Shown here piece by piece: positions 9,601 to 58,400 of a stretch of DNA of 64,000 nt. The DNA is from Xestospongia bergquistia. Lineage: Eukaryota; Porifera; Demospongiae; Haplosclerida; Petrosiidae. The stretch covers positions 6,491,821-6,555,820 of the forward strand of contig OZ014417.1 of NCBI GenBank assembly GCA_963965975.1, read 5' to 3'. Below the pieces are notes generated by a model that made no database searches, was not told where the DNA came from, and saw only the letters and a program-made list of their open reading frames with translations. The translations under genes were made by a program, and so were the position numbers. Positions within the stretch are counted from its first letter, which is position 1. Every line of letters starts with the position of its first letter.

Positions 9601-12259
9601 TTAGTAAGAGAAGCTACATACAGTGAAATCCATATATTTAGCTAGTGGTTTTATCATGTCTTCTATAGACTGAACTAAATCAGAAAATGGTGGTCTCTCC
9701 TTTGGATTACTTTTCCAACAGGACATCATTAATTTGTATCTGAAGACAATATTTATAATTATAATGTTGAAATTGATATCTAGTTTCTTACATTTCCTCT
9801 GAACATGCTGCATTATTTGGAATTAAGAGTCTGCCTCCACTGTCTAGTAATTCCACTACACTCAAAGGGTCTAGACCAGGATAGGGAATTATACCAAGAC
9901 TGAACACCTCCCAACATAACACACCATATGACCACTGTGTAAATGGATGATAGTTAATAAAAATGTAATATACTGACCACATCTGTCTTTTCAGAGAATA
10001 GACCATCATGAAGGCTTTCTAATGCCATCCACTTAACTGGCAATTTGATAACAGGTTTATCAGATTCAGTATTACTCCATTGTCTGTAATAGCTACGCAT
10101 ATAAACATCTTTTGAGAGTCCAAAATCACCAACTTTAATAATACCATTATCATCAATCCTAAATGACAGAGTGAATTGAGTAGATTTAGACATAGCTTAC
10201 ATGCAATTTCTAGCAGCAAGATCTCTGTGTACAAATCTTTTTTCAGCTAGATATGACATTCCCTTAGCAACTTGTAAACACATGGAAAGAAGCTGTTTCC
10301 TTGCATTGAGTACAATATCATCATCACTGGTTTCAGCAATTGTTAAATTTGGTCTCTCCTTTTTGAGACATGACAACAGACTACCTCTAGTCATAAATGG
10401 CATTACAATGCAAGGTGCCTGACCAAGATCAAGACAGACTCCGATGAGAGAAAGTATATTTGGATGATCAAAAGAGGACATCTTTACACTCTCTTCCATA
10501 ATAGAGTTCACATCTTCATTTGTGTAAAAACCTTAATTCAATTAATTGAGGAATTTGAAATGAATGAATTTAGAGTTAATTATATTACTGACCTTTGAGT
10601 GTTTTAACAGCAACAGGTATTGGAGCACTATTAATGATGTCACTATCAGGAGATAGTAATCCTCGATAAACTATCCCAAATTCACCTTTAAATCATTTAA
10701 TATAGTGTAAATTAAATACAAATATTAACAATACCTTGACCAATAGTCTCTTGTAATTCCAATAATGATCTTGAAATAATTCTGCACTCAGATAACCATT
10801 TTGAGTATAAAGATGAAACATCATATATAGGTGTGTGATTTGGCATGTCAGTGACAGCTTTGTTGTTCTCATTGTGTACGGCATAATTGTTATCAACTGC
10901 AGTAACTAACGTTAAGTTTTTGGTATTTAGGGAATTTTCATTGTTAGCACAATATATCATTTCCAATTCGTTGCTACAAAATAACAAGATTATATTGATT
11001 GTAATAACAACACTATATAGGAAAATACATGTAAATGTACGTATATTAAAACTCACTATCTTTATTACCTAGTTTGGATTCTCTTTCTTCTTTTTAGACA
11101 AACTATTATAATAATCACTAATGATATAGACAGGAGTAGTATGACAATTACTACTGTAATGAAGTAAGTTGCCATGCTAATTGAATTTGAGAATTGTGAT
11201 GATGTAGGTGAGAATGATGAAAAATGTGGTGTTGTTGAAGAAGCTAGAACATATGGTATAATTGACCTAGGTGAGGATGATGTAATATATATTGTTGTTG
11301 ACAAAAACCCAGATGTAGCTGAGGATGATGAAACATATGGTATAATTGATTTAGGCGAGGATGATGTAATATATGTTATTGTTAACAAAACTCTTGATGT
11401 AGCTGAGGATGATGGAACATATGGTGTAGTTGGTATAGGTGATGAAGCTGGAACATGGGATGTAGTTGAACTTGATAAAGAGTCAATTTCTTTCAAACTA
11501 CTGACACATGTACAAGTGTCAGGAGCTATGCATTGTTTGTTAGTGCCACATGGAGAACTGCAAATTGCTGTGTTGGGAGAAATCATATGATGCATGATCA
11601 AATGACCTATATGGCATACGTGTTAAGCAGTCATTGCCTGACCAACCACTAATACATGTACAAGTATCAGGAGCTGAGCATTCCATATTTGTAGCACATG
11701 AAGAATTGCAAATTGCTAAATGGATGTACCATATATTTAATAATAATAATAATTGTAATATTCTGTAAATCAATAAGAAGTAACTTACGTGGACAGTTAG
11801 GTAAAGGACCATAACCTGAACAACATCGTTTTTGCTGACTGTAAATTAACTTGTAAAGTGTTATTTTCTTAATTCTATTAAAAATATATGACATTTGTTA
11901 TTGTGTAATTACATGCTTTATTTTAGAAAATAACTGGTATTTCTGTCTTCTTGTAGCTAAATTAATTAAATTTTAATAATGCCACCACTTTTCATCATAA
12001 CAATAGATTAGCAGTATATAAGTAATAAAAACTCATGATAAGTTACTAACATTGGACATTGACCAAAAAAGCATGAGGTGTACGTGAAAGTATATTCATC
12101 AGTTTCTATTATAGTAGTGATGTTTACAAGGTTGGAACAATTTGAAGCTGCAGAACAACTAAATAAAATATATCATAATCATGAAAAACTTTTATTGAAC
12201 GAGTCTTACTTATTCATCAGAACATTAATAAAAAACAAAACAATAAAGAGTCTCCTCAT
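9601..12259 (-). CDS. EMI-EGF receptor tyrosine kinase, copy B
   Basis: Eleven exons, same architecture as copy A, reading as one frame of 654 aa: 12210-12259, 12051-12158, 11789-11874, 11620-11715, 11069-11567, 10735-10973, 10593-10685, 10201-10531, 9978-10158, 9792-9934, 9601-9739. Every exon equals its copy A partner in length except exon 5 (75 nt longer, from one extra 84-nt stalk repeat less a 9-nt difference elsewhere) and the last exon (one extra codon, ending CSFSY). Kinase motifs are intact: GQGEFG, VAVK, HRDLAARN (catalytic D494), DFG (D512) and the activation-loop YY. The signal peptide is MRRLFIVLFFINVLMN. The extracellular EGF and the kinase are very close to copy A; differences concentrate in the stalk and juxtamembrane region. 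Expected role is membrane receptor tyrosine kinase, ligand unknown. Confidence 0.9.
11273..11440 (-). repeat. 84-bp stalk repeat, two copies (RTK B)
   Basis: Two consecutive 84-bp units in exon 5, each encoding 28 residues of the form SSSATSG..STTIYITSSS followed by a Pro-Tyr-Val turn. Copy A has one such unit and pseudogene copy C has five. The unit length is a multiple of three, so gain or loss changes only stalk length. Confidence 0.85.
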
Positions 12260-20735: not shown

Positions 20736-23700
20736 TGTGTGATGACTTATGAATTTATATTTTAGAATAACTATTAGAATAACAAACTTCAACAACAGAA
20801 CACAACCAACTCATACAAATACAACAGCAGCTAACACGATGACTACCAAATGAACAAAAAATTTCATAACAACTTAAATATATACACTAATTAAACAATT
20901 ACATCATTATGACAATATTACTAACATTGGGTAAGCATGACACATACATTAGATAAGTATTAGTCTACTACATTCCTCCACCTTTAGTATAAAATAGGCT
21001 GTCCATAACGTTTCGGCGGTCTTCTTTCACGAAGGAGATCGATGTGTAGTCATTGATGTAACAGGTGTAATTGTTTTGGACGTTTGAGCGTTTCCACCAG
21101 TAGATGGTTGATCTATGGGTGACACCACAACAGGTTCTGTAGTTTGAGATGAACTATTAAAATCACCACCATACATTTCAGAATCAATTTGACTATCTGG
21201 AGCTGAATCTAATGATTCCGACACATAATCTCTTTTCCTCACATAACCTACACGACGTCTAATTTCCTAAGACAAGGGACCTGAAACTTTGACAACTTCC
21301 CCAACAAGCCATTTTTGGTGAGATGATCCAAAATTTTTAGCTAATACTTTTTCTCCAACAGAAAACCTACATAATTTCTTACTATTGTCATAAGACCTTT
21401 TTTTGCTTATCCTGGGCTTTTTCAACTGTCTTACTATTGTCTGGAAATAACATATCTAATCGAGATAGTGGATGACGTCCCATTAACAATTCAATAGGTG
21501 GTAATCCCATGGTCGAATGTGGAGTAATTCGACACTTAAACAGAAATTTAGAAAATTTCTCTTGAACATTTTCTCCTTCTCCACTCTTGAGTGCATGTTT
21601 AACAATTTGTACTTCTCTTTCCGCTTGACCATTGAGGATGAGGTGTTGTTGTGACATGTTTGATACCATTTCCTTTCAAAAAGGTTTTAAATTCTTTTCT
21701 TACAAAGGTTGGACCATTATCAGTTACGATTGTTTTGGTAATCCATGAGTAGAGAAAACAATTCTAAGTTTTTTAATCGTTTTTGTTGCTGTAATTGACT
21801 GCATCACATTAACATCAATCCATTTGGAGTGAGCGTCAATGAGGACTAAAAACATGTGTCCCATGAATGGACCTATAAAATATAAATGTAATCAATTCCA
21901 CAGTTGAGTTGGCCATTCCCAAGGGTGTAAGGGAGCTGCTTGCGGGGTTTGGCATGTTTCTTGACAGACATTACAATTTTTGACCATTTCTTCAATGTCA
22001 CTATCCATTTTGGCCACCACACGTATGATCTGGCTAACGATTTCATCTTGCTTGCTCCTTGATGAGTTTCATGTAATTCCTTTAAAACTGTAGTATGACA
22101 ACTTTTTGGAATTGCTATTCTTGATCCCCACAATAAACATCCTTGGAGAACACTGAGTTCATGTTGTCTGGTTTTATAGGGATTTAAGTCAACTGAGTCC
22201 TGTAAGATAGGCCAGCATGATAATACACATCAGCGAACTTTTGTTAAAATCGGGTCACAATCAGTATGTTGTCTAATCTCTGCTCCACTCAATAACGTAG
22301 TTGACAAATGGTCTAACAAATTTACTAACTCTCCTGATAGGCAGTCTGACGAAGTAGTGACTGGTAATAGTAATCGACTAATTGCATCAGCATTACTTAT
22401 CTCAGTTCCAGCCTTGTAACAAATAGTGTACCTATATGTGCTTAATATCAATGCCCATCTCTGAATACGTGCAGATGCCAAATGAGGAATACCTTTCCTT
22501 TCACTGAATAGAATAGATAATGGTTTGTGATCAGATTCGATTGTAAATGCTCGGCCATACAGATAATTATCAAACTTTTTGTGCCAAAAACTATGGCAAG
22601 ACCATCTTTTTCAAGTTGGGCGTACTTTTTCTCAGCTACTGTTAGAGTCTTGAGGCAAGCGCTATTGGTCTATTGCTACCACCTTCCATGGTATGTGACA
22701 AAATAGCACCAATCCCGTAGGGTGATGCGTCAAACGTCAAAACTAAAGGTTTTGTGTTATCAAAATAGACTAATAGTGAGTCTGCTTGCAAGGTCTTTTT
22801 AGCTGCATAAAAAGCTGCACCTTCTTTGACTGTCCAGGAACATCTACTGTTCTTGCATAGTAAATTATATAAGGGAGCCAATTTTGATAATAAATTAGGT
22901 AAGAAACAGCTATAATAATTTATAAGTCCTAAAAAGGACCTTAGTTCTGCTACATTTTTGGGTTTAGGCGCATCTTGAATCGCTTTGACCTTTTCAGTGG
23001 TTGGGTCAAGCCCCAGGCAATCAATAATATGGCCTAGATATTCAACACTTGACTTTAAGAAAGAACATTTCTCCCTATTTAATTGCAAGCCAGCTTTATC
23101 TAGCTTATCTAACACAGCACTGAGATTCTCTAAATGACCTGCAACAGTCAAACTTGATACTAGTATGTCATCAAGATATGCTGTTACTTCCTTGCATCCT
23201 TGGCGGAGGCTATCCATGTAATGCTGAAAAATTGCTGGTGCAGACGCAACACCAAATGGTAACCTGTTATAACAAAATAACCCCTTGTGGGTATTTATGG
23301 TAAGAAATTCCTTTAAACTGTCTTCTAATGGCAATTGAAGGTATGTTTGAGACAAATCTAGTTTACTAAAATACTTCCCACCTGGTAGCTTGGTAAACAA
23401 ATCTTCTATTTTAGGAAGGGAATAGGTGTCTATTTGGGATGCTTGGTTAATTGTGACTTTAAAATTGCCACAAATCCATATTGAACCATTTTGCTTAACC
23501 ACAGGTACAATAGAAGCTGCCCATTTTGAAAATTGTACTGGTGATATGACATTGGATGCCACCAGCCTTTCTAATTCTGCTTCAACTTTCTCTCTTAATA
23601 CAAATGGTACAGGTCTGGGCTTAAAAAATTTGGGACAAGCTCTATTGTTTACACTAAGTTGTATTTTGACACCTTTGAGGCAGCCCAATTGCTCTGTAAA

Positions 23701-24593
23701 AACACTGGAATATCCTTTTAGGAGTTGCATTGGGTGAATCTAGACTAAACATTTCTCCCAGATTGACTCTACACTTACTAACCCAATCCCTCCCTAAAAG
23801 GTTTGGGTATTACCATCAACCACAAGGAGTGGCAATTCCTCCTCTAGCTCTTTGTACTTTACACATACATTAATACTACCTATAATTGGAATACTCTCAC
23901 CTATGTAGGTTTTCAACTTGACTGGTCATTTTGTAATGGGAGTTGTAGCAACTGTATTGATGTGGTTGTACGTATCCTTGTTGATAATGGAGAGAGATAC
24001 CTGTATCGAGTTCCATAGTTACTGGGACTTGGTTAAGACTCACATTAACAATAATAGGTTCTGTTGAACTATTTCTTGCACTGAACATATCATATGAATA
24101 ATCTCCGGTAGTTTGTTCTTGTTCTGAAACAAAGTGGCTCTTTGAAGAAGATTTCTGACACCTAGCATCAGGTTTCTTTAGACTTACATACTCTTGCAAT
24201 GTGACCTTTCTTTTTACAAATCAGACAATTCCAGTCTTTGCATTTACATGAGGATGGCGAATGAGCTGCTCCACACCTGTAGCATGGTTCGTGGTGACTT
24301 GTTGTGTCTGTAGTAGTTTTGTAGCGTCTCCCCCGAGTCTGTGAGGTGAAGTGAAAACTTCGGCTGGGTACAGTAGTGTCTGACTTGAGATCCTGAGTGT
24401 CCTTTTCAGCCACTTCCAATGCTTTAGCTATGTCGAGTGCCTTGTCAAAAGTTAAGTCCTTCTCAGCCAGGAGACGTTTCTGAATACCAGAATGACTGCA
24501 AGTCTATCGCATATCATCTCTGGTAATGTGTCTTTATAGTCGCAGTGTTTGGCTAACTGTCGTAACATGACACATAAGTATTAGTCTACTACA
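20736..24593 (-). mobile_element. Second Ty3/Gypsy-type LTR element, nested and inverted (broken)
   Basis: Inserted within the reverse-transcriptase region of the outer element and oriented opposite to it. The LTR at its low-coordinate end spans about 20736-20972, with a minus-strand polypurine tract next to it (20973-20985). At the other end the terminal bases of the same LTR are recognisable up to 24593. Parts on the minus strand, 5' to 3': gag zinc knuckle (about 24168-24419), protease (around 23980), reverse transcriptase (about 22642-23730, with the YLDDILV active-site box), RNase H (about 22230-22560), integrase (about 21400-22130) and a C-terminal region (about 21027-21242). It resembles the outer element in domain order and RT wording, so they are related families. 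It is younger than its host by position, but also a fossil, with roughly half a dozen or more breaks. Confidence 0.85.
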
Positions 24594-26547: not shown

Positions 26548-27017
26548 AAGATGAAACATCATATATGTGTGTGTGATTTGGCATGTCAGTGACAGCTTTC
26601 TTGCTCTCACTGTGTACTGCATAATTGTTATCTACTGCAGTAACGTTAAGTTTTTGGTATTTAGGAATTCTCACTGTTAACACGATATGTCATCTCCAAT
26701 TAAATGCTACAAAATAAAAAATTATATTTATTATAATAACAATAATCACTATATAGGGAAATACATGTAAATGTGCTAATATTAAAACTCACTATCTTCA
26801 TTACCTAGCTTGGATTCTCTTTCTTCTTTTTAAACAAACTATTATAATAATCATTGATGATATAGACAGGAGTATTATGACAATTACTACTGTAATAATA
26901 ATAATCAAGTAAGTTGCCACACTAATTGAATTTGAGGATTGTGACGATGTAAGTGAGACTGATGGAAAATATGGTGTAGTTAAGGATGTTAGAACAAATA
27001 GTATAGTTGGTGTAGGC

Positions 27018-27437
27018 GAGGATGATGCAATATATATTGTTGTTGACAAAAACCCAGATGTAGCTGAGGATGATGGAACATATGGTATAATTGATTTACG
27101 TGAGGATGATGTAATATATATCGTTGTTGACAAAAACCCAGATGTAGCTGAGGATGATGGAACATATGGTATAATTGATTTACGTGAGGATGATGTAATA
27201 TATATTGTTGTTGACAAAAACCCAGATGTAGCTGAGGATGATGGAACATATGGTATAATTGATTTACGTGAGGATGATGTAATATATATTGTTGTTGACA
27301 AAAACCCAGATGTAGATGAGGATGATGAAACATATGGTATAATTGATTTACGTGAGGATGATGTAATATATGTTATTGTTAACAATAATCCAGATGTAGC
27401 TGAGGATGATGGAACATATGGTGTAGTTGGTATAGGT
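27018..27437 (-). repeat. 84-bp stalk repeat, five copies (RTK pseudogene C)
   Basis: Five head-to-tail 84-bp units in the EGF-stalk-membrane exon, start points 84 bases apart (27018, 27102, 27186, 27270, 27354). The inner three are nearly identical, which suggests recent slippage or unequal exchange. Each encodes 28 Ser/Thr-rich residues with the turn SIIPYVP. An overlapping frame with many His residues is only a shadow of the repeat. Confidence 0.9.
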
Positions 27438-28257
27438 GATGAAGCTGGAACATAGGATGTACTTGAGCTTGTTAAACAGTCAACAACTATCAATCCACTG
27501 ACACATGTACAAATGTCAGGAGCTATGCATTTTTTGTTAGTGCCACATGGTGAACTGCAAATTGCTGTGTTGAGAGGAATTAATATGATACATGATCAAA
27601 TGAATTGTGCATCATACGTGTTAAGCAGTCATTGCCTGACCAACCACTAATGCATGTACAAGTATTAGGAGCTGAGCATTCCATATTTGTAGCACACGAA
27701 GAATTGCAAATTGCTAAATTGATATACCATATATTTAATAATAATAATAGTAATGTTCAGTAAATCAATAAGAAGTAACCTACATGGACAGTTAGGTAAA
27801 GGACCATAACCTGAACAACATCGTTTTTGCTGACTGTAAATTAACTTGTAAAGTGTTATTCTCTTAATTCTATTAAAAATATAGGATATTTATTATTGTG
27901 TAATTACATGCTCTATTTTAGAAAATTACTAATATTTCTGTCTTCTTGTAGCTAAATTAATTAAATTGTAATAATAACAGCACTTTTCATCATAACAGTA
28001 GATTAGTAGTATATAAGTAATAAAAAACTCATGCTAAGTTACTAACTTTGGACAGCGACCAATAAACCCACATGAGGTATAAGTGATAGTATATTCATCA
28101 GTTTCTATTATAGAAGATATGTTTACAAGGTTGGAACAATTTGAAGCTGCTGAACAACTAAACAAGATAGATCATAATTATGTACAATTTCATTGAATAA
28201 TTCTTACTTATTCATCAGAATGTTAATAAAAAACAAAACAATAAAGAGTTTCTCCAT

Positions 28258-31045
28258 TTTGAACAGGACAGCAGTTTACACAAAATTAACTATAAAATGA
28301 TAACCATAAAACTAGAAGCATTTAAAAAAATACTTTTACACAGAAAAAATTGTTTTAATATGAGGTGTTCCCTTTTAAAGATCTTATGAATGTTCCCTCA
28401 TAATAATTAGCATTTTGTATGGAACTAGAATTAACCAATCAGTAAAATGAAATTTTATAATGTTAATGTTGAGTGGCTTAGTACTAGGCAAGCAATCTGA
28501 ACAGTGGATAAAAATCTCATGATAGCTAGTTTTGATGTATATATCTATAAGTGTGCGTGATCCCATCAGGCTTAATTACGAAAATTTACTTAAGTCACAG
28601 TGATTGATACACCTTCCCCTTTTTCTGTAATAACAGAAAATATCTCAAGTTATTTCTTCTCCAAGCACTTTATTGCATGCTATGGCTTCCTTTTGGACCA
28701 TTTTGAACAACAAAATCCTTTACTCTCTTAGTGAATTTTCATCTTTTCATGTTGTATGATGAACCAGGTAGTTCTGCTTAATAATTTCTATGCTGTAAAT
28801 ATGCCTTCATCAATTTGGCTGAAATCTTGTTCCAGTGATCAATTTGGTCTTTTTAGCATAACTATCTTTATTTTGTTCTTGTTCCTTATTCATTTCGACT
28901 GAATATAAAAGTAAAGACAGACATTCCAAATTCCTATTTTCAATTTTAATCAAAAGGTGTTATCCAGAGTTAGAACGTTTGTCTTCATCTTTTGAAATGA
29001 CAATGCAGAGTTCAAATATCTGTCCTTGATTCCCATTCATGACAGACCTAGAATAATCAGGAACCCAACCCAACTGGAATGTCTCATTGATACTCGATTA
29101 TAAGAGACATTCCATTGTACTTGTGCTTTACATTTTTTTTGAATAACAAGAAAAGCTTAATAAAAATTAGAAATACGGCACATGCCAAGAATAAAATAAA
29201 GTAGAAAGACATCAACTGTGTCATACGAAAGCCAAAGGTGGACATCCAATTCTACTTTGCAATTTCATATTCTGCATTGAAGTTTTCCAAAAATACAAAA
29301 ATTCCAATTCTATTTTCCATTGCTCAATGAAATGAAACACAGAGCGTGCACACTGCAATCTGTCTCTTTGAATGGAGGAAAGCTACATGTTTCCAGTAAG
29401 GTCAGGGATTTAGGATTTTAGTTGTTAAATATTAATTAATTAAGGATGGAAAATAGAATTGGAATTGAATTTTTTGGGAAAACTGCAAAGTAGAATTGGA
29501 TATTTTAAAAAATTTTATAAATTACAAAGTAAAAGCAGATGGCTGCCTTTGGCTTCCATAGTGTCATTAATTGAAATTTCAGCACATGCAAAAGTGCGTG
29601 GAAGAAATTTGAAACAGGAATTGAAATGTCCAGCTTCCGTAGTAGAAATTTCAAAATAGGAAATTCCATTTCCAAATTTTTTATTTCAAATTCTTGTTAA
29701 AGAAGAAGTTTGCTAATTTTGGAAGATCTTTCACTGCATGGATGTGATACCTGTTTGATGTAGCAGGACAGCAGATAATTAGCCTTCTATACAGAACCCG
29801 TGAAAATAAAGGAGTGACACAATACACTTAAGATATATGGGATGTGGCAATGATAACATTGAGTTGATGCCAAAATCAGAATACTGAAGGAACAATAAGT
29901 TTCTGTTATGTAGTGGTATGCATTATACTAAATGTAAGTTCAATTTGTTTGAAATGTATTGAATGAGTATAGCTAGTTGTCAAAGAAATGAAATCTATCT
30001 CAGTAGTTAGACAAATGTTTTAGAAGTGGCACTATATCAATTCTTGTCACTATAACTATTATGTGGTATAGCTTTGCTGTGTGTTATATGTAAGGATATC
30101 ACTATATCAATGCCATTCACTATAGGTAGCTTCGATGCTGAAGATGAAAGTACTGTAACTATCAATTCCTGTTAGCATATATATATATTCTATACTTGTG
30201 ATAGCTTTGCTATATATTGCAATGTAAGGGCTGTCACTATATTTATTGGACCATTGTCTACACTTTTTTGTGGGAATAGTAGTAGACAAACTATGCAGTT
30301 CTAGAGTATTTAGTAATAATTATAAAAAATATATTGTTATATATTAAAGGAACCAATCTCTTTTAACAGTATATACATGGCTGGCAATCTTCTAAAAAGA
30401 CTTACAAATGGTGTGTGATACTCTCACACCTAGATGCCATTATGCATGATACACACATGGCTTCAAGTGTATAGCAGCAATATCACTCCTAAACATCAAG
30501 ATGTCAGCCTGAGGGGAACCCTAGGGCTGATTTAGAGAGGTGAAGGTGTCATATTTGCTGTTATATATAGATCTATAAAACTAGCACTTTAAAAATTAAC
30601 AGATAATAACTTAACGAGATCAATACTCCACTTGGTTGTCAAAACTACTCAAGACAGTATACGAATTGTACCTACAGTAATAATTTAAACAAAGAACTTT
30701 CTATAAAAATTAAAAAGAAGTTTAAAATAGATGTTGTTGGTCTCAGTATTAACAATTATTCATTTGGCACAGATTGAATAGAAATAAAGATGTCACTACA
30801 ATTTAGATGTTGAACACTGACTATAGCTTAAAAATTATATAAGGTTTACTTGTTTAAAAAATGGTTGTTTCTTTTACATGAAAAAACACAAAGCTTCAAA
30901 ACATTCCTAGAATATAGAGGATGGCTGGCACATTTTACAACCCTAAACCCTAACTTCTGAACACACATGTTTACATTCATTTCTAATATAACTTTTCAAA
31001 GTCTTGTTGAATAAGCAGTGTATTTTGCCCTATGTAAAAATGCTC
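28258..31045. other. Spacer upstream of RTK C, first part
   Basis: No gene recognised. It aligns in order with 3121-5420 (copy A) and 12260-14530 (copy B) and carries one repeat core at about 30420-30590. The homologous spacer continues at 36319 after the DNA transposon, so the transposon landed after the unit was duplicated. Confidence 0.55.
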
Positions 31046-31047
31046 TA

Positions 31048-31446
31048 GAGTAAATTACACAAGATCGGGCGGATCACTTTCGGCCGCCTCCCACAGGACA
31101 AACGTGCGAAAGAACGAACTTCTTTACCCTGCTACCATAAAGTATAATCCTTTACTTGTTTATTCTGATACCTTTGATAATTTCTTATCTTTACTGTGCG
31201 GAGCAACAAAGTTTATAAAAAATATTTCGGGCACATGCGTAGGCGGACAACAATAATGTCAATTCGTACGAGTGGCAAAACTCTTCTCACGATCAAGCAA
31301 ACTGAGAAAGCTATGGCTGGCAGGATTGATTGATGACTGAACTACAACACGATAGCCAAACCATTTCTTTCAGCAAGGAGTTCACGTCTCCAAAGAGCAA
31401 AAGATTTGAATGGGTGTGGACATGAGTATTCGGACACACCTTCATC
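31048..31446 (+). repeat. Left terminal inverted repeat
   Basis: 399 bp beginning GAGTAAATTACACAAGATCG and ending near CACCTTCATC. It pairs with 35918-36316. It is long for the pogo/Tigger group, which usually has TIRs of a few tens of bases. Confidence 0.93.
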
Positions 31447-31687
31447 AGTGTAGCGTGCTCTCAACGTGGCTCAACGTGTTTGCACTTTGCTCTCAAATTG
31501 GCTATTGCTCTCATTATTGCTCTCATTCTCACCTTTAACTTTGCTCTCAACGTCATTGTGGTCTTTACTCTCAACGTAGTTCACTCTCATTGTGGCATTT
31601 GCTCTCAACGTGGTTGTTGCTCTCATTGTGGCCTTTGCTAGCCTTTGCTGTCAACGTGGTCTCTTAACGTGGTCACTCTCTAAAGCT
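31447..31687 (+). repeat. Subterminal 'CTCTCAACGTGG' motif array / leader of transposase gene
   Basis: About a dozen imperfect copies of a motif of the form (T)GCTCTCA(A/T)(C/T)GTGG fill the space between the left TIR and the transposase ATG. They are clustered only at this end; no similar cluster was seen inside the right TIR. They could be transposase-binding sites, promoter elements or a 5' leader. The ATG at 31688 follows directly. Confidence 0.75.
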
Positions 31688-33753
31688 ATGGCTGAAGGTT
31701 ATACATTAACAGGTATGTTTAACTTACTAGTGTTTATGTTACTATTAATTATTATCTAGATACTAGTAGCATTCATAGTCTCACTCATGCTAAAGTTACT
31801 TCTTCATCAACAAGTATGTTAACTTGTCAATGTTTGTGTTATTATAATTATTTTATCTAGTCGTAAAGGACAAAACACTTCCCTTATGTGAACGTATATT
31901 TTGCTCAACATCTATTATTCCATCATCTTCTACTCGGCCTACAAAATATAAGACTTGGACATTAAGCGATTTAGAATTTGCATGCAGTGCTGTTAAAGAT
32001 GGCATATCTATTAGACAAGCAGCAGAGGAGTACCAAATACCCAAATCTACGCTACAAGATCACGTGTCCGGAAAGGTAATAAGTGGTAGTAAAAGTGGTC
32101 AAAGGTATTTGACAGAAAGTGAAGAAGAAGAGTTGGTATCCTTTATTTTGGAAACAGCAAAGATTGGATTCCCACGAACAAGAAAGGAAGTCTTGTCATT
32201 AGTTCAAATTGCAGTTAACCAAAAAGGCAAAAATGTAACAGTGTCCAGTGGGTGGTGGGAAGGTTTTAAGAAGCGGCATTCCGAAATTTCACTTCGGACC
32301 ACTGAGCAACTTGCCAATAATCGTGCAGCAGCATGCACTCTTGATGTATTAAGTAATTACTTTGATTTACTAGAGCAGACAGTTCTGGATAATGACCTTG
32401 TTTCAAAACCTAATCAGATATTTAATTGCGACGAAACGGGAATGCCTCTCAATCCAAAGTTTCCAAAGGGCATAGTGGCTAAAGGTATCAAACATCCGAG
32501 AGCAGTAACAACGGGAAATAAAACCCAGATGACTGTCCTTGCTTGTTGTAATGCTGCTGGATATTGTTTGCCACCTTTTGTGCTGTTTGACAGGAAATGT
32601 CTTAGACCAGCAATGTGTGATGGTGAGGTCCCTGGGACTATGTATGGTCTCTCAGATTCAGGGTGGATAACTAGTCAATTATTTGATTTATGGTTTGTAC
32701 ATCACTTTTTGCCTCATGCTCCTGCTGCTCGTCCTCTACTCCTATTACTAGATGGCCACTCATCACATTACAATCCTTCAGTTATCAGTAAAGCTGCTGA
32801 GGAGAAAGTGATAATTTTCTGTCTACCACCTCATTCATCACATGAAACACAACCACTAGATAAGGGCCCATTTGGTCCATTAAAAACCTCTTGGAAAGAA
32901 GTGTGTCGGAAGTTTTTGGCTGACAATCCTGGGAAGGTTGTTAGCAGGTTCACGTTTTCCAAATTGTTTGGTGAAGCATGGATGCATTCAATGACTTTAA
33001 AAAATATTCAGGCTGGTTTCAAGTGTACAGGGATTTACCCCTTGAAGAGGGATATGATTGTTCCACTGGTGAAAGATACAACCACCAGTACTCTTGCACA
33101 GCGCACTGGGTTGAAGTTTATACCACTGTATATACCGCAGATCTGCTGTTCCTGAATTCACACAGGAAGAAGAGTTACGTTTTCAGAGAAGATTTGAAGA
33201 AGGTTATGATATAGATTCTGATAATCGTTACAATTCATGGAAAGAAATGCACCAGTCATCTGATGATGTTAATCCAGAGGCCAATCTAGGTTCTCCTTTG
33301 TCACATGATATCACACTTGTTAACAGTGATATGGCTACACATTCATTGGTTCCTGCATTTAATCCTTACATGTATCCATCCTGTACTCCCGATACATTTC
33401 AAGTAGTGGTACCTGTATTCAATTGTCAGTCTCAAAAGAGTATTTGCAATGACTATACTATGCTTCCATTTCTCTATGTTCCTCCAAAACAATTTGAACA
33501 CCCTGCCAATCTCCAACGATCGTCTACTCTTTCAAAAGTCATAAATGAAGAAAGACCTGTACCCTTTTGTAAGCTTCCAGTTATACCACCAAAACATAGT
33601 GGAAAAGTTTTGACTAGTGAAGAGAATCTCAGAGCTATAGAAGAAAAGGAAAGGAAGAAGCAGGAAGAACTGAGAAAAAGGGATGAACGAAAGGAGAAGA
33701 GAAGTAAGATTGTTGATATCCCAATACATGTAATCGCATTTATATCTCATTAG
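31688..33753 (+). CDS. Tigger/jerky-type transposase, three exons, one frame change near the C-terminus
   Basis: Exons 31688-31712, 31760-31813 and 31861 onward join in frame (introns 47 nt each) to give MAEGYTLTD... and a 457-aa frame ending at 33155. The N-terminus has a psq/CENP-B-type helix-turn-helix (KDGISIRQAAEEYQIPKSTL). The DDE_1 domain has NCDETG (D217), DGHSSH (D324) and QPLDKG (D360), a DD35D triad, all three residues present. After about 33115 the recognisable family C-terminus (EFTQEEELRFQRRFEEGYD) continues in the next frame and stays open to 33753. A single small indel at about 33115-33150 has therefore probably shortened the protein. It would bind the TIRs and cut and paste the element. 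The third-exon start is supported by TATCTAG and frame continuity. The last part is Lys/Arg-rich. Confidence 0.9.
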
Positions 33754-33776
33754 ATCAAGCCAGGATTAAAAAATTG

Positions 33777-33782
33777 AATAAA
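33777..33782 (+). terminator. Polyadenylation signal AATAAA after transposase
   Basis: Canonical AATAAA 24 bases after the 33753 stop. It would end the transposase transcript before the micro-exon gene; read-through past it would be needed to join both genes in one transcript. Confidence 0.55.
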
Positions 33783-34003
33783 CGTAAGAAAAAGGACCTT
33801 TTGTGTTAGTATTATTAATAATAGGAAGTGCACCCCTTGAAAAGTCTTCAACATGTAGAAGAGGTTCTCAATTGCATTCTAGCTTTGATGATGGTAAGCA
33901 TTGTGAGTGTCAAGTAACACCATAAAACATGCACTGGTACATGTAGCTTGCTTCTTCCTATCTTTGGAGATAATCAATTACTGGGAAACATTTCTAATGA
34001 AGG

Positions 34004-34194
34004 TACCGTAAATCAGGAGAATTTCGTCATTACGTAATTTTTTGTACTTGTGATGATGTACAAAAATTATTTAAGCAAATATTAATTTATGCGCATGTGC
34101 AATATGGTGGAACAATGGAATATACGAAAATAAATCAAAGAAAAAATTTAATACGTGAATATTTTTCAACATGAAATATTCCAGATTTACGGTA
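34004..34194. mobile_element. Small inverted-repeat element (MITE) nested in the transposon
   Basis: About 190 bp. The left end TACCGTAAATCAGGAGAATT pairs with the right end, which reads TACCGTAAATCTGGAATATT on the minus strand. There is no coding capacity. A TA at each edge could be the target duplication. It sits between the transposase gene and the first exon of the micro-exon gene, 14 bases before that ATG, so it may supply or disturb the promoter or 5' end. Confidence 0.75.
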
Positions 34195-34208
34195 TTATAT
34201 AAATAATC

Positions 34209-35694
34209 ATGTACTGGAAAGTTGCACTTGTAGGTTTTTACCACTCTACTTTTTCTGATATATTTACCACTACTCTCACATGTGCTGAAGCTGTTGCCGA
34301 ACCTTCTTCTTTAACAGGTACAATATATTAACTTGTCAGTGTTTCTGTCACAAATTGGTATTACTATCTAGGCACTGATAGCACTCGTAGTCTCACACGT
34401 CCTAAAGCTACTGCTGAACCTTCATCAACAGGTATGTTAACTTGTCAGTGCTTCTGTCACAAATTGGTATTACTATCTAGGCACTTATAGCACTCGTAGT
34501 CTCACTCGTGCTAAAGCTACAGCTTCAACAACAGGTATGTTAAGTTGTCAGTGTTCCTGTCACAAATTGGTATTACTATCTAGGCACTAATAGCACTCGT
34601 AGTCTCACACGTGCTAAAGCTACTGCTGAACCTTCATCAACAGGTATGTTAACTTGTCAGTGTTTCTGTCACAAATTGGTATTACTATCTAGGCACTAAT
34701 AGCACTCGTAGTCTCACACGTGCTAAAGCTACTGCTGAACCTTCATCAGCAGGTATGTTAACTTGTCAGTGTTTCTGTCACAAATTGGTATTACTATCTA
34801 GGCACTAATAGCACTCGTAGTCTCACACGTGCTAAATCTACTGCTTCAACAACAGGTATGTTAAGTTGTTAGTGTTCCTGTCACAAATTGGTATTACTAT
34901 CTAGGCACTGATAGCACTTGTAGTCTCACACGTGCTAAAGCTACTGCTGAACCTTCATCAACAGGTATGTTAACTTGTCAGTGTTTCTGTCACAAATTGG
35001 TATTACTATCTAGGCACTAATAGCACTCGTAGTCTCACTCATGCTAAAGCTACAGCTTCAACAACAGGTATGTTAAGTTGTCAGTGTTCCTGTCACAAAT
35101 TGGTATTACTATCTAGGCACTTATAGCACTCGTAGTCTCACTCGTGCTAAAGCTACAGCTTCAACAACAGGTATGTTAAGTTGTCAGTGTTCCTGTCACA
35201 AATTGGTATTACTATCTAGGCACTAATAGCACTCGTAGTCTCACTCGTGCTAAAGCTACAGCTTCAACAACAGGTATGTTAAGTTGTCAGTGTTCCTGTC
35301 ACAAGTTGGTTTTACTATCTAGGCACTAATAGAACTTGTAGTCTCACACGTGCTAAAGCTACTGCTGAACCTTCATCAACAGGTATGTTAACTTGTCAGT
35401 GTTTTTGTCACAAATTGCTATTACTATCTAGGCACTTATGGCACTTGTACTCTTAAAGCTACATCTAAGGAAATGAAGAAGAGTGTTAGAGGTGAAATGA
35501 ATTTTATTGGCCAGTTATCATTAATAGTTTCTATTCTAGTTAGTAATTGCCTACATAAAACTTGTGCTCATCCAAGGGCAACCACTTGGGTGAATTGTTC
35601 GAATTGCCTGCAGTGGTACCATTGCAGTTGTGTCAATGTATTATACACTGTTGCCAAGAGAAAAGACTTTAATTATGTTTGTGAAAACTGTTAA
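34209..35694 (+). CDS. Micro-exon array gene ending in a PHD finger (transposon cargo)
   Basis: Twelve exons read as one frame of 313 aa. They are 34209-34317; micro-exons 34372-34431, 34481-34534, 34584-34643, 34693-34752, 34802-34855, 34905-34964, 35014-35067, 35117-35170, 35220-35273, 35323-35382; and last exon 35432-35694. Every junction is phase 1 with GTATGT...CTAG sites (first donor GTACAA). Each micro-exon encodes 20 residues like GTNSTRSLTRAKATAEPSST or an 18-residue variant ending ATASTT, giving a Ser/Thr/Arg/Lys-rich repeat. The last exon ends in a C4HC3 pattern typical of PHD fingers (CLHKTC, CSNC, WYHCSC, CENC), a fold that reads histone tails or acts in ubiquitin/SUMO transfer. 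The ATG at 34209 is a suggestion. Because transposase exon 1 also ends in phase 1, it could splice to any micro-exon instead. The function is unknown; a nuclear, chromatin-related helper of the transposon is an inference. Confidence 0.72.
34372..35431 (+). repeat. Tandem exon-intron array (10 units of 103 or 109 bp)
   Basis: Ten units, each one micro-exon plus one intron of exactly 49 nt. Two unit types alternate irregularly. Type L has a 60-nt exon with an intron containing GTTAACTTGTCAGTGTTTCTG. Type S has a 54-nt exon with an intron containing GTTAAGTTGTCAGTGTTCCTG. The order is L S L L S L S S S L. Exon and intron types co-vary, so whole units were copied. The spacing and GT-AG borders rule out a simple satellite read by chance. 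Confidence 0.9.
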
Positions 35695-35917
35695 TTTTTG
35701 TATTAATGGTTTTTGACTGCAGTCTCAAATGACAAGCATTGCATTCAACTTGCATACATCACTGAGATACACCATCTCTAACACCACAGCGCACTGCATG
35801 CAAACTCTAAATTATTTGATGTCTAAAGTTCTACATTTCAAAAGCCATTAGAAGACAGTTGTGTCCATTACGACTATAAACGTACCAGTTGAATAATTAT
35901 AGAGCTAGACCATCATT
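35695..35917 (+). other. 3' region of the micro-exon gene
   Basis: Between the PHD stop codon and the right TIR. No open frame of note and no canonical AATAAA was found; it probably serves as the 3' UTR. Confidence 0.5.
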
Positions 35918-36316
35918 GATGAAGGTGTGTCCGAATACTCATGTCCACACCCATTCAGATCTTTTGCTCTTTGGAGACGTGAACTCCTTGCTGAAAGAAA
36001 TGGTTTGGCTATCGTGTTGTAGTTCAGTCATCAATCAATCCTGCCAGCCATAGCTTTCTCAGTTTGCTTGATCGTGAGAAGAGTTTTGCCACTCGTACGA
36101 ATTGACATTATTGTTGTCCGCCTACGCATGTGCCCGAAATATTTTTTATAAACTTTGTTGCTCCGCACAGTAAAGATAAGAAATTATCAAAGGTATCAGA
36201 ATAAACAAGTAAAGGATTATACTTTATGGTAGCAGGGTAAAGAAGTTCGTTCTTTCGCACGTTTGTCCTGTGGGAGGCGGCCGAAAGTGATCCGCCCGAT
36301 CTTGTGTAATTTACTC
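35918..36316 (-). repeat. Right terminal inverted repeat
   Basis: Reverse complement of 31048-31446 over 399 bp; the only difference noticed is one base (gatct against gattt) near the inner end. Confidence 0.93.
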
Positions 36317-36318
36317 TA

Positions 36319-38340
36319 CTTATCCTAATGTAGCAGAATAGCTAATTATTCTGTTATGATTGCAGGCCACTGTTTGATTAAAATTCTTCAATGCTGTTCT
36401 ATTGATGTGAAATTCTTTTAGGTTAATTTTATTTTTATACAGCTTTTTTTATCTTAGTTGACATTTCTTTAAACTACTACTCTTGAAAAACAACTCTTAC
36501 TTTAGAAAAGTCTCCAATTCATACATTATGTCAGATGTAATTAAACCAATATGTAACAGTTGATTGGTTGATTAACTAATACATAATTATACAGCTACAT
36601 ATAAAAAAAATATAAATATAAGAGCAAAATTATATATATATATACAGAGTGTGGCAATGATATTGTCGAATTTATGCCGGAATTAAAATATTTAAAGTAA
36701 AAATTCTGTTATATAATAATATTCATCGTGTATTGAGTGACAAGTGTAATTAATTGTTTGAGCAGTGAAAAATATCTCAGTAGTTAGACAGATGCTGTAA
36801 ATGAGCTTAATCAAGTTTGCAACCTAGTTGTAGAATTACTATTCAGAATTCGAAATTATCACCATCATATGATTCCTCTATATAAGCAAATTACTGACCA
36901 TTGTTACTGCCATCATCACACATTGCTATTATATCTAGCAAATGAACCTAATCAAGGTTGCAACCTAGTTTTAGAATTACTATTCCCTAACTAACAAAAC
37001 ATTTACAATAAGAAACATTAACTTTCTCAACATCATCCTCAACTCTAACACCAGTACATCAGTACTTCTATACAAGAAATTCCTATTGAGTAACAATAAA
37101 TTGAATAGATTTTATAATCACCTTTATCAGAATCATCAACAACTCTTACATCTATGATTAATACATTATTCATCTGTCATGATACTAGCTGATGATTTAG
37201 CTATAACATCAGGATACAACACAGATAGTTGACTTTGACCAAGAAACTTTGACTGAGCAGTTGTTGCTGGAGGTTGAAATACCTCAGTGTGTGTTGATGG
37301 CAGTAACAATGATGAGTAATTTCCATATATAAAGGAATCACATGATGGTGATTATAAAACACATGTAAATGTAAGAGCAATATATAATATATATAGGGTG
37401 CGACAATGATATTGTTACATTTATGCTGGAATTAGAATATTTCGAGAAATAATTTTGTTATATAATGATATGCGTAATGTTAATTATTTGGTTAAAATGA
37501 TCTGAATAACAGGTGTAATTAATTGTCAGAGCAATGAAAATTATCTCAATCATTAGACAGATGCTGTAAAGGCCATTACTATATTTATTCTGTGGTATAT
37601 TTGATGTTTGTTATGTGAAGGGAATGTTATTATATCATTTCCTGTCACTATGTTCTATGGTAGCTTTAATGTGTATTATGTGTAAGGTTGATATCATCTA
37701 TTACTGTCATCATATTTATTGAGTGGTAGCTTTGATGTGTATCATGTAATATTTGTATATATGCTATATATGGTAGTAGCTTTTCTGTGTCACTGTGTCT
37801 AAGAAGGGTGACTATGGATTCATAATAGGAAATCTGTACGCACTACACTTGTGCTAATTTATAGCAAGTGGAAGTACACAAGGACATAGTAATTAGTGAT
37901 TAAAAACATTGTAAGTAGCTTTTGATGTATAAGAGCTGTCACTATTAATTTCTCTATCACTATTTTAATTCTGTGATAGCTTGTATTACAATGTAAGGGT
38001 TGGGACTATATTTTGTGTCAGCTTTTTAATGTGCTCTTTTTGGGAAATAGAAGAATGTTATATAATTATATTGAAACAACAAATCTCTTTTAACAGTGCA
38101 TATATGATTGGTAATATTCTAAGAAGACTTATAAATGGTGTGTCATACTCTTACATCTATATAATGTTATTATATGCAATATATATTATAATATGGCTTT
38201 TAGATGTATAGCAGCATTATCAGACCTTTACCCTTTTACATCAGCCAAGACAATATAAAGAATTGATTATCAAGAGGTAAATGTCTAATATTTGTAGCTC
38301 TAGATTAATTCATCTACCACCTTGAAATTATTAAGTAAAA
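36319..38340. other. Spacer upstream of RTK C, second part
   Basis: Resumes the duplicated spacer (compare 5430 onward and 14560 onward). An insert at about 36800-37340 is not in copies A or B. It has two runs of 'tcaagtttgcaacctagtt' type repeats (near 36810 and 36950), also seen near 40320, and an open minus-strand stretch (37166-37330). A repeat core lies at about 38140-38320. Confidence 0.5.
37166..37330 (-). other. Orphan open stretch, possible terminal exon fragment
   Basis: Minus-strand reading gives about 52 codons ending TAA at 37166, with wording that looks coded rather than random (for example SLLLPSTHTEVFQPPATTAQ) and less AT than its surroundings. No start, partner exon or family was recognised. 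It could be the end of a transposase or a displaced C-terminal exon; it is absent from spacer copies A and B. Confidence 0.35.
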
Positions 38341-48000: not shown

Positions 48001-51000
48001 GTATGATCCATTAGTATTAGTACAATGAACTTGACATGAATTTTGTGAACATTCATTGATATCTATATTGTCAAAATTGTTGTTGTCACATTAATTAATG
48101 CAAATTGCTATAATATATCATATTAATATTATATTAACAAAACCACTACAAATTGCTGTGCTGTTATAAGACTATATAACGAGTCCCATTGAATATGTAA
48201 CAATACCTGCTAAACAGTTATTGCCTGTCCATCCACTGACACATGTACAAGTGTCAGGAGCTGTACATTGTTTGTTAGTCCCACAAGGTGAACTGCAAAT
48301 GGCTACATAAATAAGAATTTTATTGCTACTTAATCAATGAGTATACCATACGTGTTAAGCAGTCATTGCCTGTCCATCCACTGACACATATACAAATGTT
48401 AGGAGCTGTACATTGTTTGTTAGTACCACATGGTGAACTACAAATTGCTGTGTTGTTATAAGACTATATGTAGTGAGTTACATTGGATATGTACCTTACC
48501 TGTTAAACAGTTACTGCCTTTCCATCCACTGACACATGTACAAGTGTCAGGAGCTGTACATTCTTTGTTAGTACCACAAGGTGAACTACAAATTGCTTTG
48601 TTAAAAGGGAAAAATGATTATAATGTGTCCACAGGAAAATGTAACCATACGTGTTGAGCAGTTATTGCCTTTCCATCCATTGACACATGTACAAGTGTCA
48701 GGAGCTGTACACTGTTTGTTAGTACCACATAGTGAACTACAAATTGCTTTGTTAAAAGGGAAAAATGATTATAATGTGCCCACAGGAAAATGTAACTGTA
48801 CGTGTTAAGCAGTTATTGCCTTTCCATCCACTGACACATGTACAAATGTCAGGAGCTGTACATTGTTTGTTAGTACCACATGGTGAACTACAAATTGCTG
48901 TGTTGTTATAAGAATATATATAGTGAGTTACATTGGATATATACCTTACCTGTTAAACAGTTACTGCCTTTCCATCCACTGACACATGTACAAGTGTCAG
49001 GAGCTGTACATTGTTTGTTAGTACCACATGGTGAACTACAAATTGCTGTGTTGTTATAAGACTATATATAATGAGTTACACTGGATATGTACCTTACCTG
49101 TTAAACAGTTACTGCCTTTCCATCCACTGACACATGTACAAGTGTCAGGAGCTGTACACTGTTTGTTAGTACCACATGGTGAACTACAAATTGCTTTGTT
49201 AAAAGGGAAAAATGATTATAATGTGTCCGCAGGAAAATGTAACCATACGTGTTGAGCAGTTATTGCCTTTCCATCCACTGACACATGTACAAGTGTCAGG
49301 AGCTGTACATTGTTTGTTAGTACCACATGGTGAACTACAAATTGCTGTGTTGTTATAAGACTATATATAATGAGTTACACTGGATATGTACCTTACCTGT
49401 TAAACAGTTACTGCCTTTCCATCCACTGACACATGTACAAGTGTCAGGAGCTGTACACTGTTTGTTAGTACCACATGGTGAACTACAAATTGCTGTGTTG
49501 TTATAAGACTATATATAATGAGTTACACTGGATATGTACCTTACCCGTTAAACAGTTACTGCCTTTCCATCCACTGACACATGTACAAGTGTCAGGAGCT
49601 GTACACTGTTTGTTAGTACCACATGGTGAACTACAAATTGCTGTGTTAAAAGGAAAAAATGATTATAATGTGTTCACAGGAAAATGTAAACATACGTGTT
49701 GAGCAGTTATTGCCTTTCCATCCACTGACACATGTACAAATGTCAGGAGCTGTACATTGTTTGTTAGTACCACATGTTGAACTACAAATTGCTGTGTTGT
49801 TATAAGAATATATACAGTGAGTTACATTGGATATATACCTTACCTGTTAAACAGTTACTGCCTTTCCATCCACTGACACATGTACAAGTGTCAGGAGCTG
49901 TACATTGTTTGTTAGTACCACATGGTGAACTACAAATTGCTGTGTTGTTATATGACTATATATAATGAGTTACACTGGATATGTACCTTACCCGTTAAAC
50001 AGTTACTGCCTTTCCATCCACTGACACATGTACAAGTGTCAGGAGCTGTACATTGTTTGTTAGTACCACATGGTGAACTACAAATTGCTGTGTTAAAAGG
50101 AAAAAATGATTATAATGTGTTCACAGGAAAATGTAAACATACGTGTTAAACAGTTACTGCCTTTCCATCCACTGATACATGTACAAGTGTCAGGAGCAGA
50201 ACAATTTTTATTAGCACCACATGGTGAACTGCAATTAGGTATAAAAAAATTAATTATTATTTTACAGATTATTAAACCATACCTGTTAAACAGTCACTGC
50301 CTTTCCATCCACTAACACATGTACAAGTATTAGGAGCCGAGCATTCCATGTTAGTACCACATGAGGAATTGCAAATTGCTAAATTATGATATTATAATAT
50401 TCTGTGTACATTAATAACAAGCATAACTTACGTAGACAGTTTGGTTTAGGACCATAACCTGTACAACATTGCATTTGAAGATTATAAGTCAATGTATATT
50501 TTGTCGTGCTGCGTTCTCTATATTATAATATAAACATGTACTTCATTGTTGTCGTATTATTTGCATGTACTATCTTATAGAAAAAGTATATGATTTTTAG
50601 TTTTCTAGCTAAATTGACAATATTAGCATTACTGCCAAATGTATTTAAAAGATTTAACCCATCTCAGCAATAATAAATCCTGATCTAATTAATAGAAAAT
50701 ATTGTTAACTTATTTTGGATTGTATGATTTCATTTGTATTATATGAGCAAATTTTAATACACAAAATACACTTAATAAATTGTATCAATCTAACCCATCT
50801 CGACAACGACTACCACCCCACCAGCCACATGATTTGTAAGTAGCACGATACCCAACATATGATGTTACAGAAGACACAGATACATTGTATGAGCAAGATG
50901 ATACAGCATGACAACTGTATATGATAAGACATATTACAATAATACAGTGTCATAATAAAACTTACCTATACATCAAAACTGTATAACAAAAGAAGACAAT

Positions 51001-55497: not shown

Positions 55498-58400
55498 TTA
55501 TAGATTTATAACACTAATATCATCATCTATCAAGTACTGGTCATTGCTAATTATAACAGTGCTTTGTCTTGTCTTATTGTAACGATCTTTACTTTTAACA
55601 TTTCCTCCTTGCACTTCAAATCCTCTGTAGTAAAAACATAGTTATTATATATGTAGATTATAATGTATTCAGCTAACTTTGGTACTATCTTGTGATTCCT
55701 TTTTGATTTTAAAAGACCAAAAGGCATTATTATGCCAGAAACAGCAAGAAACAAAAACGAAGTACCAACAAAACCAATTGAAAAATATAGAATAACGTTT
55801 CTTTTTGTTGTAGGTTCAGTATTTGGTGTCTGAGTGGGACCAATGCTAGTGAGTACGGGAGTTGTGTCATTTGACAGAAAATTGACTGATGTCACTATTA
55901 ACATCTGTCCATCAACTATTATTTCTGAAGTATTTCGTGTCCAATTTTGTAATATAATCAATAGTTGTGATGTTGTGTAATTAGATATAGCAGACAATCT
56001 TGCTCTCATTTGTATTGTATGTTCATTGTCACATTGTAAAGTGTTATCTGATATATAGTCTGAAGTTATTGAACAATAACAGACATTATTCAACACTCTA
56101 ATTATGACTCGAGTAATCTCAGTGAGTTTACTTTCAGTATTATTTAACTATTATAACAACAAATTCTATTATAATATTTAATATTGTTTATAACTTACTA
56201 TCCACAGATAACAGTTATTCAATCCATTGATATACATAACAATCAGTTTGTTGTCATATACTTTAAAAAATAACCTAAAATGTGTTATCATAATTTAAAA
56301 TAAACTAACCAGGAATTAGTATATTTTGAGAATCCAAACCATGTCCTTCTTTAGTTTGTGCTGACACTGACAAGCAATATTTTGAGAGTGGATCCAGATT
56401 TCTGACTCTAATTGATGTATTCAGAGTGGTAACAAATATTTCATTCATGTTAACCACAACACAACGATCTATAGATTTAGTCAGATTAAAGGAATATCCT
56501 GTCACAATTCCTCTCCCCTCTTCTAGTGTTAGTGGCTTTATTTTTATGATTATTTCAGTTGAGGAAACTCTCTGTGCTAACTCATTTTTTGGAGCCACTC
56601 TAGGAACTATAGAACAAAATCAAAATGTTTAATGTCCTTTTAAGATTATACCTGTCTCCTGAGTAAAAAATACTTCATGTGATGCTTTTCCTGAACCAGC
56701 AGTAGTAACTGCAAAAACACTAACTTCATATGGAATATAAGGATCTAAAGAATGCACGTATAATTTATAAAATAATACAATTCAAGCTGTAACTAACTCA
56801 AATTTTGTATTAAATAATTTAAATTTTCTGTAGGTACAATCGAGATAGAACGATTAAAACTATTAACTGTCAAACTCCTAATATTGATGTCATAGCTTAA
56901 AATAACTCCATTTGTTAGTAATGGTTGCTCCCATGAAATGTTGACTGATGTATTTGAAATTACAATGACAGTGAACTGCTGGATAGTGTCAAGCTCTAAA
57001 TGAACAAAAAAGATTCTAATGGCAAGATTTTTTAGAAACACAAATCATTTATCTATATTTGCATACATTCATCAATCTAACCTGTCTGTTCTGTTGTATT
57101 GTATACATAGTCTGACTGAGGTCCTTCTCCTCCAATAGTTGTAGCTGAGATACTTACTCCAACTTGTTGATAGGGTGTCAGTCCCTCCAGGAGATACAGT
57201 GTGAACTGACTATCTACAGTTCTAGTAGATATATCACTACCATTAGTATAGTTGATGTACAGAGTATAATTAGCAATGATACCATTAGGTATCAATGGAG
57301 GCTCCCATTGAATTAGAAGAGATAATGCATTCCTCGCAGTTACTGAAATATTAACTGGAGAGTCGTCAGGAACTAAATCAATATGCCATGGATTAATATA
57401 ACATTATCGGTGGTTATAGTCTGTCACTTACCATCTTGTAATGTAGTAAAGTTAATACACTGACTTTTTCCTGTTCCATTAGTTGTCCATTGAGGTGTGA
57501 TACAGCATATATAAGAAGTATATGGCTTTAGAAATGTTATAGAGAAATTCAATTCCTGAGTGATATTTGATGTTATTATAGTGTTAGTATTTGATATATT
57601 ACACATCACTATGTAACCATCAAAACTTCCGTATTGAATGTATCGAAGTGGAGGATTCCATGTTATTAGGCACAATGCACTGGTAAGTTCTATAATGGTC
57701 ATATTCTGAATATCTCCTGTGTGGGAAAAGGAATTTAAATTTTTGTATGTGCTACTATTATTGCATATGAACTATATGATCATTGTGAAACTATCATTTG
57801 AGCTAAAATGTATCTGTTTACAAAAAAACAATACATAATTGATCAGAGCTTAAAGTTGATAATAGATGCATGGACATAATAATTATTATGTACCTAGACA
57901 ATGAATTCCATCAGCAGCAATGACACTTGATGTATCACAGGAGCAGTAGTATGATCCATCAGTATTAGTACAATGAAGCTCACATACATTTTCTAAGCAT
58001 TCATTAATATCTAAATTAGTTATAATTAAGGAAAAAATACTTATATTACTGAATATATTATTACCTAATAGACAGTTATTGCCAGCCCATCCACTGACAC
58101 ATGTACAATTGTTGGGACCTGTACACTGTTTATTAATACCACATGGTGTAGTACATATTGCTATGTTTTTATAAGTCTGTATAATGAGTTCATAATTGTA
58201 TATATAGCCATACCTGTCAAACAATCACGGCCTGTCCATCCACTGACACATGTACAATTGTTGGGACCTGTACACTGTTTATTAGTACCACATGGTGTAG
58301 TACATATTGCTATGTTTTTATAAGTCTGTATAATGAGTTCATAATTGTATATATAGCTATACCTGTCAAACAATCACGGCCTGTCCATCCACTGACACAT

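Follow-up and report, generated by a model that had tools for sequence, protein, structure and literature searches.

A pogo-superfamily element of the sponge Xestospongia bergquistia with a probable micro-exon linker array in its transposase gene

A stretch of 64,000 nucleotides from Xestospongia bergquistia (contig OZ014417.1, positions 6,491,821 to 6,555,820; hereafter the window, in whose numbering all coordinates are given) contains a pogo-superfamily element whose transposase gene probably includes an amplified micro-exon linker. The ten near-identical micro-exons most likely encode an extensible linker of the element's own transposase, one that arose through ordinary duplication of exons in tandem; a separate new kind of gene is less likely. 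On balance, the array and the PHD-like end that follows it appear to be the C-terminal part of a single transposase gene split by short introns.

The array comprises ten micro-exons which measure, in order, 60, 54, 60, 60, 54, 60, 54, 54, 54 and 60 nt (five of each size; 570 nt or 190 codons in total). Its ten introns (34432-35431) are each exactly 49 nt, and all have GT-AG ends and lie in phase 1. Read with these introns removed, the frame from an ATG at 34209 to the PHD-like end has no interruption over 894 nt, stop codon counted, and gives 297 amino acids; without splicing, many stops occur across the array in all three forward frames. The exon and intron sizes, the splice ends, the phase and the uninterrupted spliced reading agree with an earlier sequence-only reading of the region. 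The periodicity of the array is far above chance (Tandem Repeats Finder score 1725). Degenerate units precede and follow it:

34234-34317, plus strand: degenerate first unit exon of 84 nt, in frame with the ATG at 34209, 25 nt upstream; a 54-nt intron (34318-34371) separates it from the array
34372-35382, plus strand: array of ten micro-exons, each 60 or 54 nt, and their 49-nt introns (splice geometry, alignment)
35432-35491, plus strand: last unit exon, degenerate, with a length of 60 nt provided that the next intron is real
35492-35539, plus strand: possible 48-nt intron, itself open in frame and so perhaps retained
35540-35694, plus strand: PHD-like terminal exon and stop (Pfam PHD match below cut-off, match to solved structures)

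Splice sites of the ten array units, and of a related unit in the transposase leader described below, are fixed by homology. The outer sites of the first and last degenerate units were picked to keep the frame, and a length divisible by three is no evidence there.

The duplicated unit is an exon plus its intron, 103 or 109 bp together. Adjacent exons are homologous, the introns are homologous and the phases are compatible, which are the marks of tandem exon duplication. Divergence is recent, with mean pairwise values of 6.5% for exons and 4.7% for introns. Since the introns are copies of one another, their ten equal lengths are not independent coincidences. A functional constraint on a length of exactly 49 nt was considered and dropped, as the copying of whole units explains it.

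The layout was earlier thought to be a design without a recognised parallel, a view that does not hold, as constant introns between symmetric exons are also found in an EGF-like array of the same window. In this array (58214-60097, minus strand), 13 exons measure exactly 96 nt each and 12 introns exactly 53 nt each; the introns are all GT-AG and in phase 1, and divergence is 4.6% in exons and 5.1% in introns. The label EGF-like is based on matches of two single exons to EGF families (reaching E = 3.3e-5), which are below Pfam cut-offs. A second EGF-like array (48145-50380, minus strand) has a period of about 148 bp and, by pattern, at least nine exons (48207-50378); introns of 52 nt were caught in three adjacent exon pairs. 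Given these arrays, the constant-intron layout is not peculiar to the transposon, and they show that tandem exon-intron duplication is at work in this genome. Symmetric phase-1 exons, constant introns and similar divergence are common to host and transposon arrays. However, the EGF-like arrays belong to a host-type gene and encode a Cys-rich module, whereas the transposon array encodes a low-complexity linker. The host genome may readily multiply short exon-intron units, a general process of the host in which the element may simply take part.

Many symmetric short exons are also a feature of the micro-exon genes of schistosomes. Unlike the array, these genes belong to the host, and their exons are not known to be copies of a single unit.

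The element that carries the array is 5,269 bp long and flanked by TA on both sides (31046-31047 and 36317-36318). Its terminal inverted repeats (TIRs), for which a length of 399 bp had been given, are present and measure 403 nt each. Three N-terminal to C-terminal Pfam domains were found in the transposase frame, namely HTH_psq (30.9 bits, cut-off 20.4), HTH_Tnp_Tc5 (23.9 bits, cut-off 22.2) and DDE_1 (77 bits, cut-off 22, E = 1.7e-21, scanned as 31848-33152). The three catalytic D residues are present in DDE_1, with 35 residues between the last two (DD35D). A DDE_1 catalytic domain with N-terminal helix-turn-helix DNA-binding domains, together with TIRs and a TA target-site duplication (judged from the filled site), places the element in the pogo superfamily of IS630-Tc1-mariner elements, as classified in passages of PMC7386202.

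31048-36316, plus strand: whole pogo-superfamily element, 5,269 bp (TIRs and TA flanks)
31048-31450, no strand: left TIR, 403 nt, identical to the right TIR at 401 of 403 positions
35914-36316, no strand: right TIR, 403 nt
31688-31712, plus strand: possible first transposase exon with ATG, ending in phase 1
31760-31813, plus strand: 54-nt micro-exon of the transposase leader, homologous to array units (alignment against dinucleotide shuffles)
31814-31860, plus strand: 47-nt leader intron, homologous to array introns (alignment)
31861-33155, plus strand: transposase open frame with HTH_psq, HTH_Tnp_Tc5 and DDE_1 (DD35D; Pfam scan)
33115-33703, plus strand: tail of the transposase, shifted to a different frame, with a basic and charged stretch at its end

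The transposase leader contains a unit related to those of the array. When its exon and intron (31760-31860) were aligned to the array units, the score was 89, against -6 for the best of 500 dinucleotide shuffles, every shuffle being scored against all ten units; in a looser control with a fresh shuffle for each unit, the best shuffle scored 15. With each of the five 54-nt array exons, the leader exon shares 42 to 44 of 54 positions without gaps; its alignments to the five 60-nt exons contain six gap positions. Alignments of the leader intron to the ten array introns contain two to six gap positions each, which are not kept to multiples of three. Gaps of 0 or 6 in exons, beside gaps in all ten introns, are mild evidence that the units are coding. 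The first leader intron (31713-31759, 47 nt) is also related to the array introns (37 of 50 columns). As a homologous unit is present in the 5' leader of the transposase, and a predicted phase-1 splice path leads from the transposase tail into the array, the array is more likely to be a linker within the transposase gene.

This GT-AG, phase-1 path leaves the tail after 33703, passes through predicted exons to reach the array and ends at the stop after the PHD-like end; its predicted introns are 33704-33753, 33784-33824 and 33894-34233. Up to three introns being allowed, six chains were obtained, all of which leave at 33704 and enter at 34234. If there is no splice at 33704, the basic tail runs into an unrelated stretch and stops at 33753.

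33704-33753, plus strand: predicted 50-nt GT-AG intron (donor 33704 in all six chains; acceptor 33753, 33809 or 33824)
33754-33783, plus strand: predicted exon continuing the basic tail (two of six chains)
33784-33824, plus strand: predicted 41-nt GT-AG intron (two of six chains)
33825-33893, plus strand: predicted exon with both ends in phase 1; alternative limits 33810 and 33902
33894-34233, plus strand: predicted 340-nt GT-AG intron holding a MITE-like inverted repeat (donor 33894 or 33903; acceptor 34233 in all six chains)

Several points weigh against joining tail, array and PHD-like end in one gene. The middle of the splice path is not unique (four chains with two introns, two with three), the real sequence also permits a chain ending in another phase, and 25 of 200 dinucleotide shuffles also allow some chain, so that the join is weakly above chance. 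The transposase transcript could end before the array at AATAAA (33777) or ATTAAA (33765), although the plus strand of the window has 84 occurrences of AATAAA. The transposase of this copy has a frame break between 33115 and 33155, for which an intron of only 13 or 31 nt, spotted by eye, is a possible cause. The Pfam PHD match of the terminal exon, at 22 bits (E = 1.7e-4), is below the gathering cut-off of 24. Finally, the ratio of nonsynonymous to synonymous differences (pN/pS) among the ten units is 0.92, with no sign of selection, and divergence is no lower in exons than in introns.

The sequence-only reading had proposed an internally amplifying accessory gene of a DNA transposon. Its tandem symmetric micro-exons, borne by a transposon and alterable in number without loss of frame, were borne out; the accessory gene was not, given the leader homology and the splice path from tail to array. 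Such a gene would have a short transcript from about 34209, encoding a 297-amino-acid repeat protein with a PHD-like end, and is unlikely. It would fit the spliced frame open from the ATG at 34209, the possible transposase stop at 33753 with AATAAA downstream, and the one or two open reading frames, encoding transposases, that pogo elements have (PMC7386202). However, an in-frame TAA at 34200 makes that ATG simply the next one available, and it lies 15 nt past the end of a MITE-like insert; the first unit exon has a usable acceptor at 34233, and the array units are related to the leader of the transposase itself.

Exon divergence no lower than that of introns, with no sign of selection among the units, would also be expected of a non-functional minisatellite, in which units went on multiplying after the death of the copy and no protein is made from the array by splicing. 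The broken transposase frame fits this too. About 11 exon changes would leave the units free of stops with a probability of 0.69, and the eight variable intron columns would miss all nine splice-site columns with a probability of 0.17. Given these chances and the pN/pS value, the intactness of the ten copies is not proof of function or selection; lack of stops had been considered as proof of selection and was dropped on this account. Nevertheless, the near-identity of the TIRs indicates that the element copy is young, and the comparison with the leader, in which gaps respect multiples of three in exons and not in introns, speaks against a minisatellite. Decay of this kind is considered quite unlikely. 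The copy, young as it is, is probably unable to make a full transposase unless there is a very small intron at the frame break.

If the single transposase gene is correct, one small exon with its intron would have been tandemly duplicated inside it. The array would be spliced, and tail, array and PHD-like end would be joined in one transcript. The ten units of 18 or 20 amino acids would form a low-complexity linker rich in Ser, Thr, Ala, Arg and Lys, with the DDE catalytic region and its basic tail on one side and the C-terminal PHD-like finger on the other. This linker may tether the finger, with a putative role in reading chromatin, to the catalytic core. As units are in phase 1 and divisible by three, unequal exchange or slippage would change linker length and keep the frame; copy number in the array presumably changes by unequal exchange. 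A bolder and rather doubtful proposal is that the transposase holds its catalytic core and chromatin-reading PHD apart by a linker encoded in a self-expanding array of identical symmetric micro-exons, that linker length, and possibly the preference for insertion sites, therefore varies among copies of the element, and that the unit moved between N- and C-terminal parts of the gene. If spliced as predicted, the array would be a compact example from nature of how an exon array is amplified within the gene of a transposon; array length, splicing and insertion sites could then be compared among the copies of the element in a single genome.

Variable exon skipping might instead give a regulated ladder of isoforms, with linkers of several lengths made from a single locus. 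In favour of this, every one of the ten units is a symmetric exon divisible by three, and their splice sites are near-identical. However, uniform splice sites would predict constitutive splicing. In passages of PMC4432959 on another sponge, Amphimedon queenslandica, introns are small and exon skipping is rare, accounting for 1.8% of alternative-splicing events. The window, too, has short introns, and its AT-rich sequence, these introns and its EGF-like exon arrays would fit a sponge such as Amphimedon. A regulated ladder is very improbable in this element.

The PHD-like end gave 33 matches to sequences of solved structures at E up to 1, the best of which was the BPTF PHD finger (E = 1e-4); most of the 33 are presumably PHD-finger proteins. 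A single-sequence AlphaFold2 model of the PHD-like tail had a mean pLDDT (predicted local distance difference test) of 43.7 and was unusable. When solved structures were searched with the transposase, just two weak matches were found, both named Ribonuclease I.

A PHD finger at the C-terminus of an intron-split transposase is also known from Ginger1, which carries Ulp1 and PHD as extra C-terminal domains (PMC2836005). Ginger1 differs in belonging to another superfamily (Gypsy-integrase-like) and in having few introns (0 to 4 in the relevant rows and text of PMC2836005), and an exon array is not mentioned in the passages of that paper on it. In a literature search no title or abstract opening described a PHD finger or an array of exons in a pogo element, full texts being mostly unopened.

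The family to which the element belongs is less clear-cut than its superfamily. In passages of PMC7386202, Tigger is defined by CENP-B_N with HTH_Tnp_Tc5, or HTH_Tnp_Tc5 alone, and Fot and Fot-like families by HTH_psq and/or HTH_Tnp_Tc5, DD35D and TIRs mostly of 40 to 60 bp. CENP-B_N was absent among the eight Pfam families matching the transposase frame at E up to 1. The DNA-binding domains appear closer to those given for Fot and Fot-like families than to those of Tigger, and DD35D fits as well, but TIRs of 403 nt do not. Their length fits an unclassified long-TIR pogo group, which the same passages restrict to insects. At 5.27 kb the element is just over the size range of 1.20 to 5.20 kb given there for pogo. 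The main text of PMC7386202 contains no occurrence of PHD or of intron.

Further copies were sought in bacterial, archaeal and viral contig collections, where absence says little. The transposase frame gave 15 pattern matches in bacterial and archaeal genome contigs and one in viral contigs, none of which was confirmed. There were no matches to the array-intron pattern in viral contigs, or to the TIR pattern in either genome or viral contigs. When the whole element was compared by blastn with the rest of the window (outside 31000-36400), there was no match at E up to 1e-3.

A degenerate pogo motif was found at two loci in viral contigs. One, L002:1208-4577, on a contig listed as viral in IMG/VR, shows the broken frames, two or more by eye, of a pogo-like transposase with HTH_psq, HTH_Tnp_Tc5 and DDE_1 as here, and 27% identity over 316 columns (E = 3e-35). 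Its tail frame, after a stop, ends in a small Cys/His motif with sub-threshold Pfam matches. This example lends thin support to a putative C-terminal zinc-binding end in pogo-like transposases. The other, L001, was rejected as a pogo relative, since its match is in the frame opposite a long phage-like frame and by eye looks like chance.

The insert within the large predicted intron of the element resembles a miniature inverted-repeat transposable element (MITE) and spans 34004-34194, with 22-nt imperfect inverted ends. A convincing second copy was not found in the window (best other match E = 0.024).

Elsewhere in the window, an 84-bp tandem repeat (26801-27595, 5.4 copies) has a frame open on both strands; by eye, its minus strand encodes a Ser/Thr-rich stalk followed by a hydrophobic stretch. 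A shorter relative of this repeat is present at 11065-11622. On the minus strand, a reverse transcriptase and RNase H frame (22642-23739; RVT_1, E = 9.1e-27) looks, by eye, like that of a Ty3/Gypsy-type retrotransposon.
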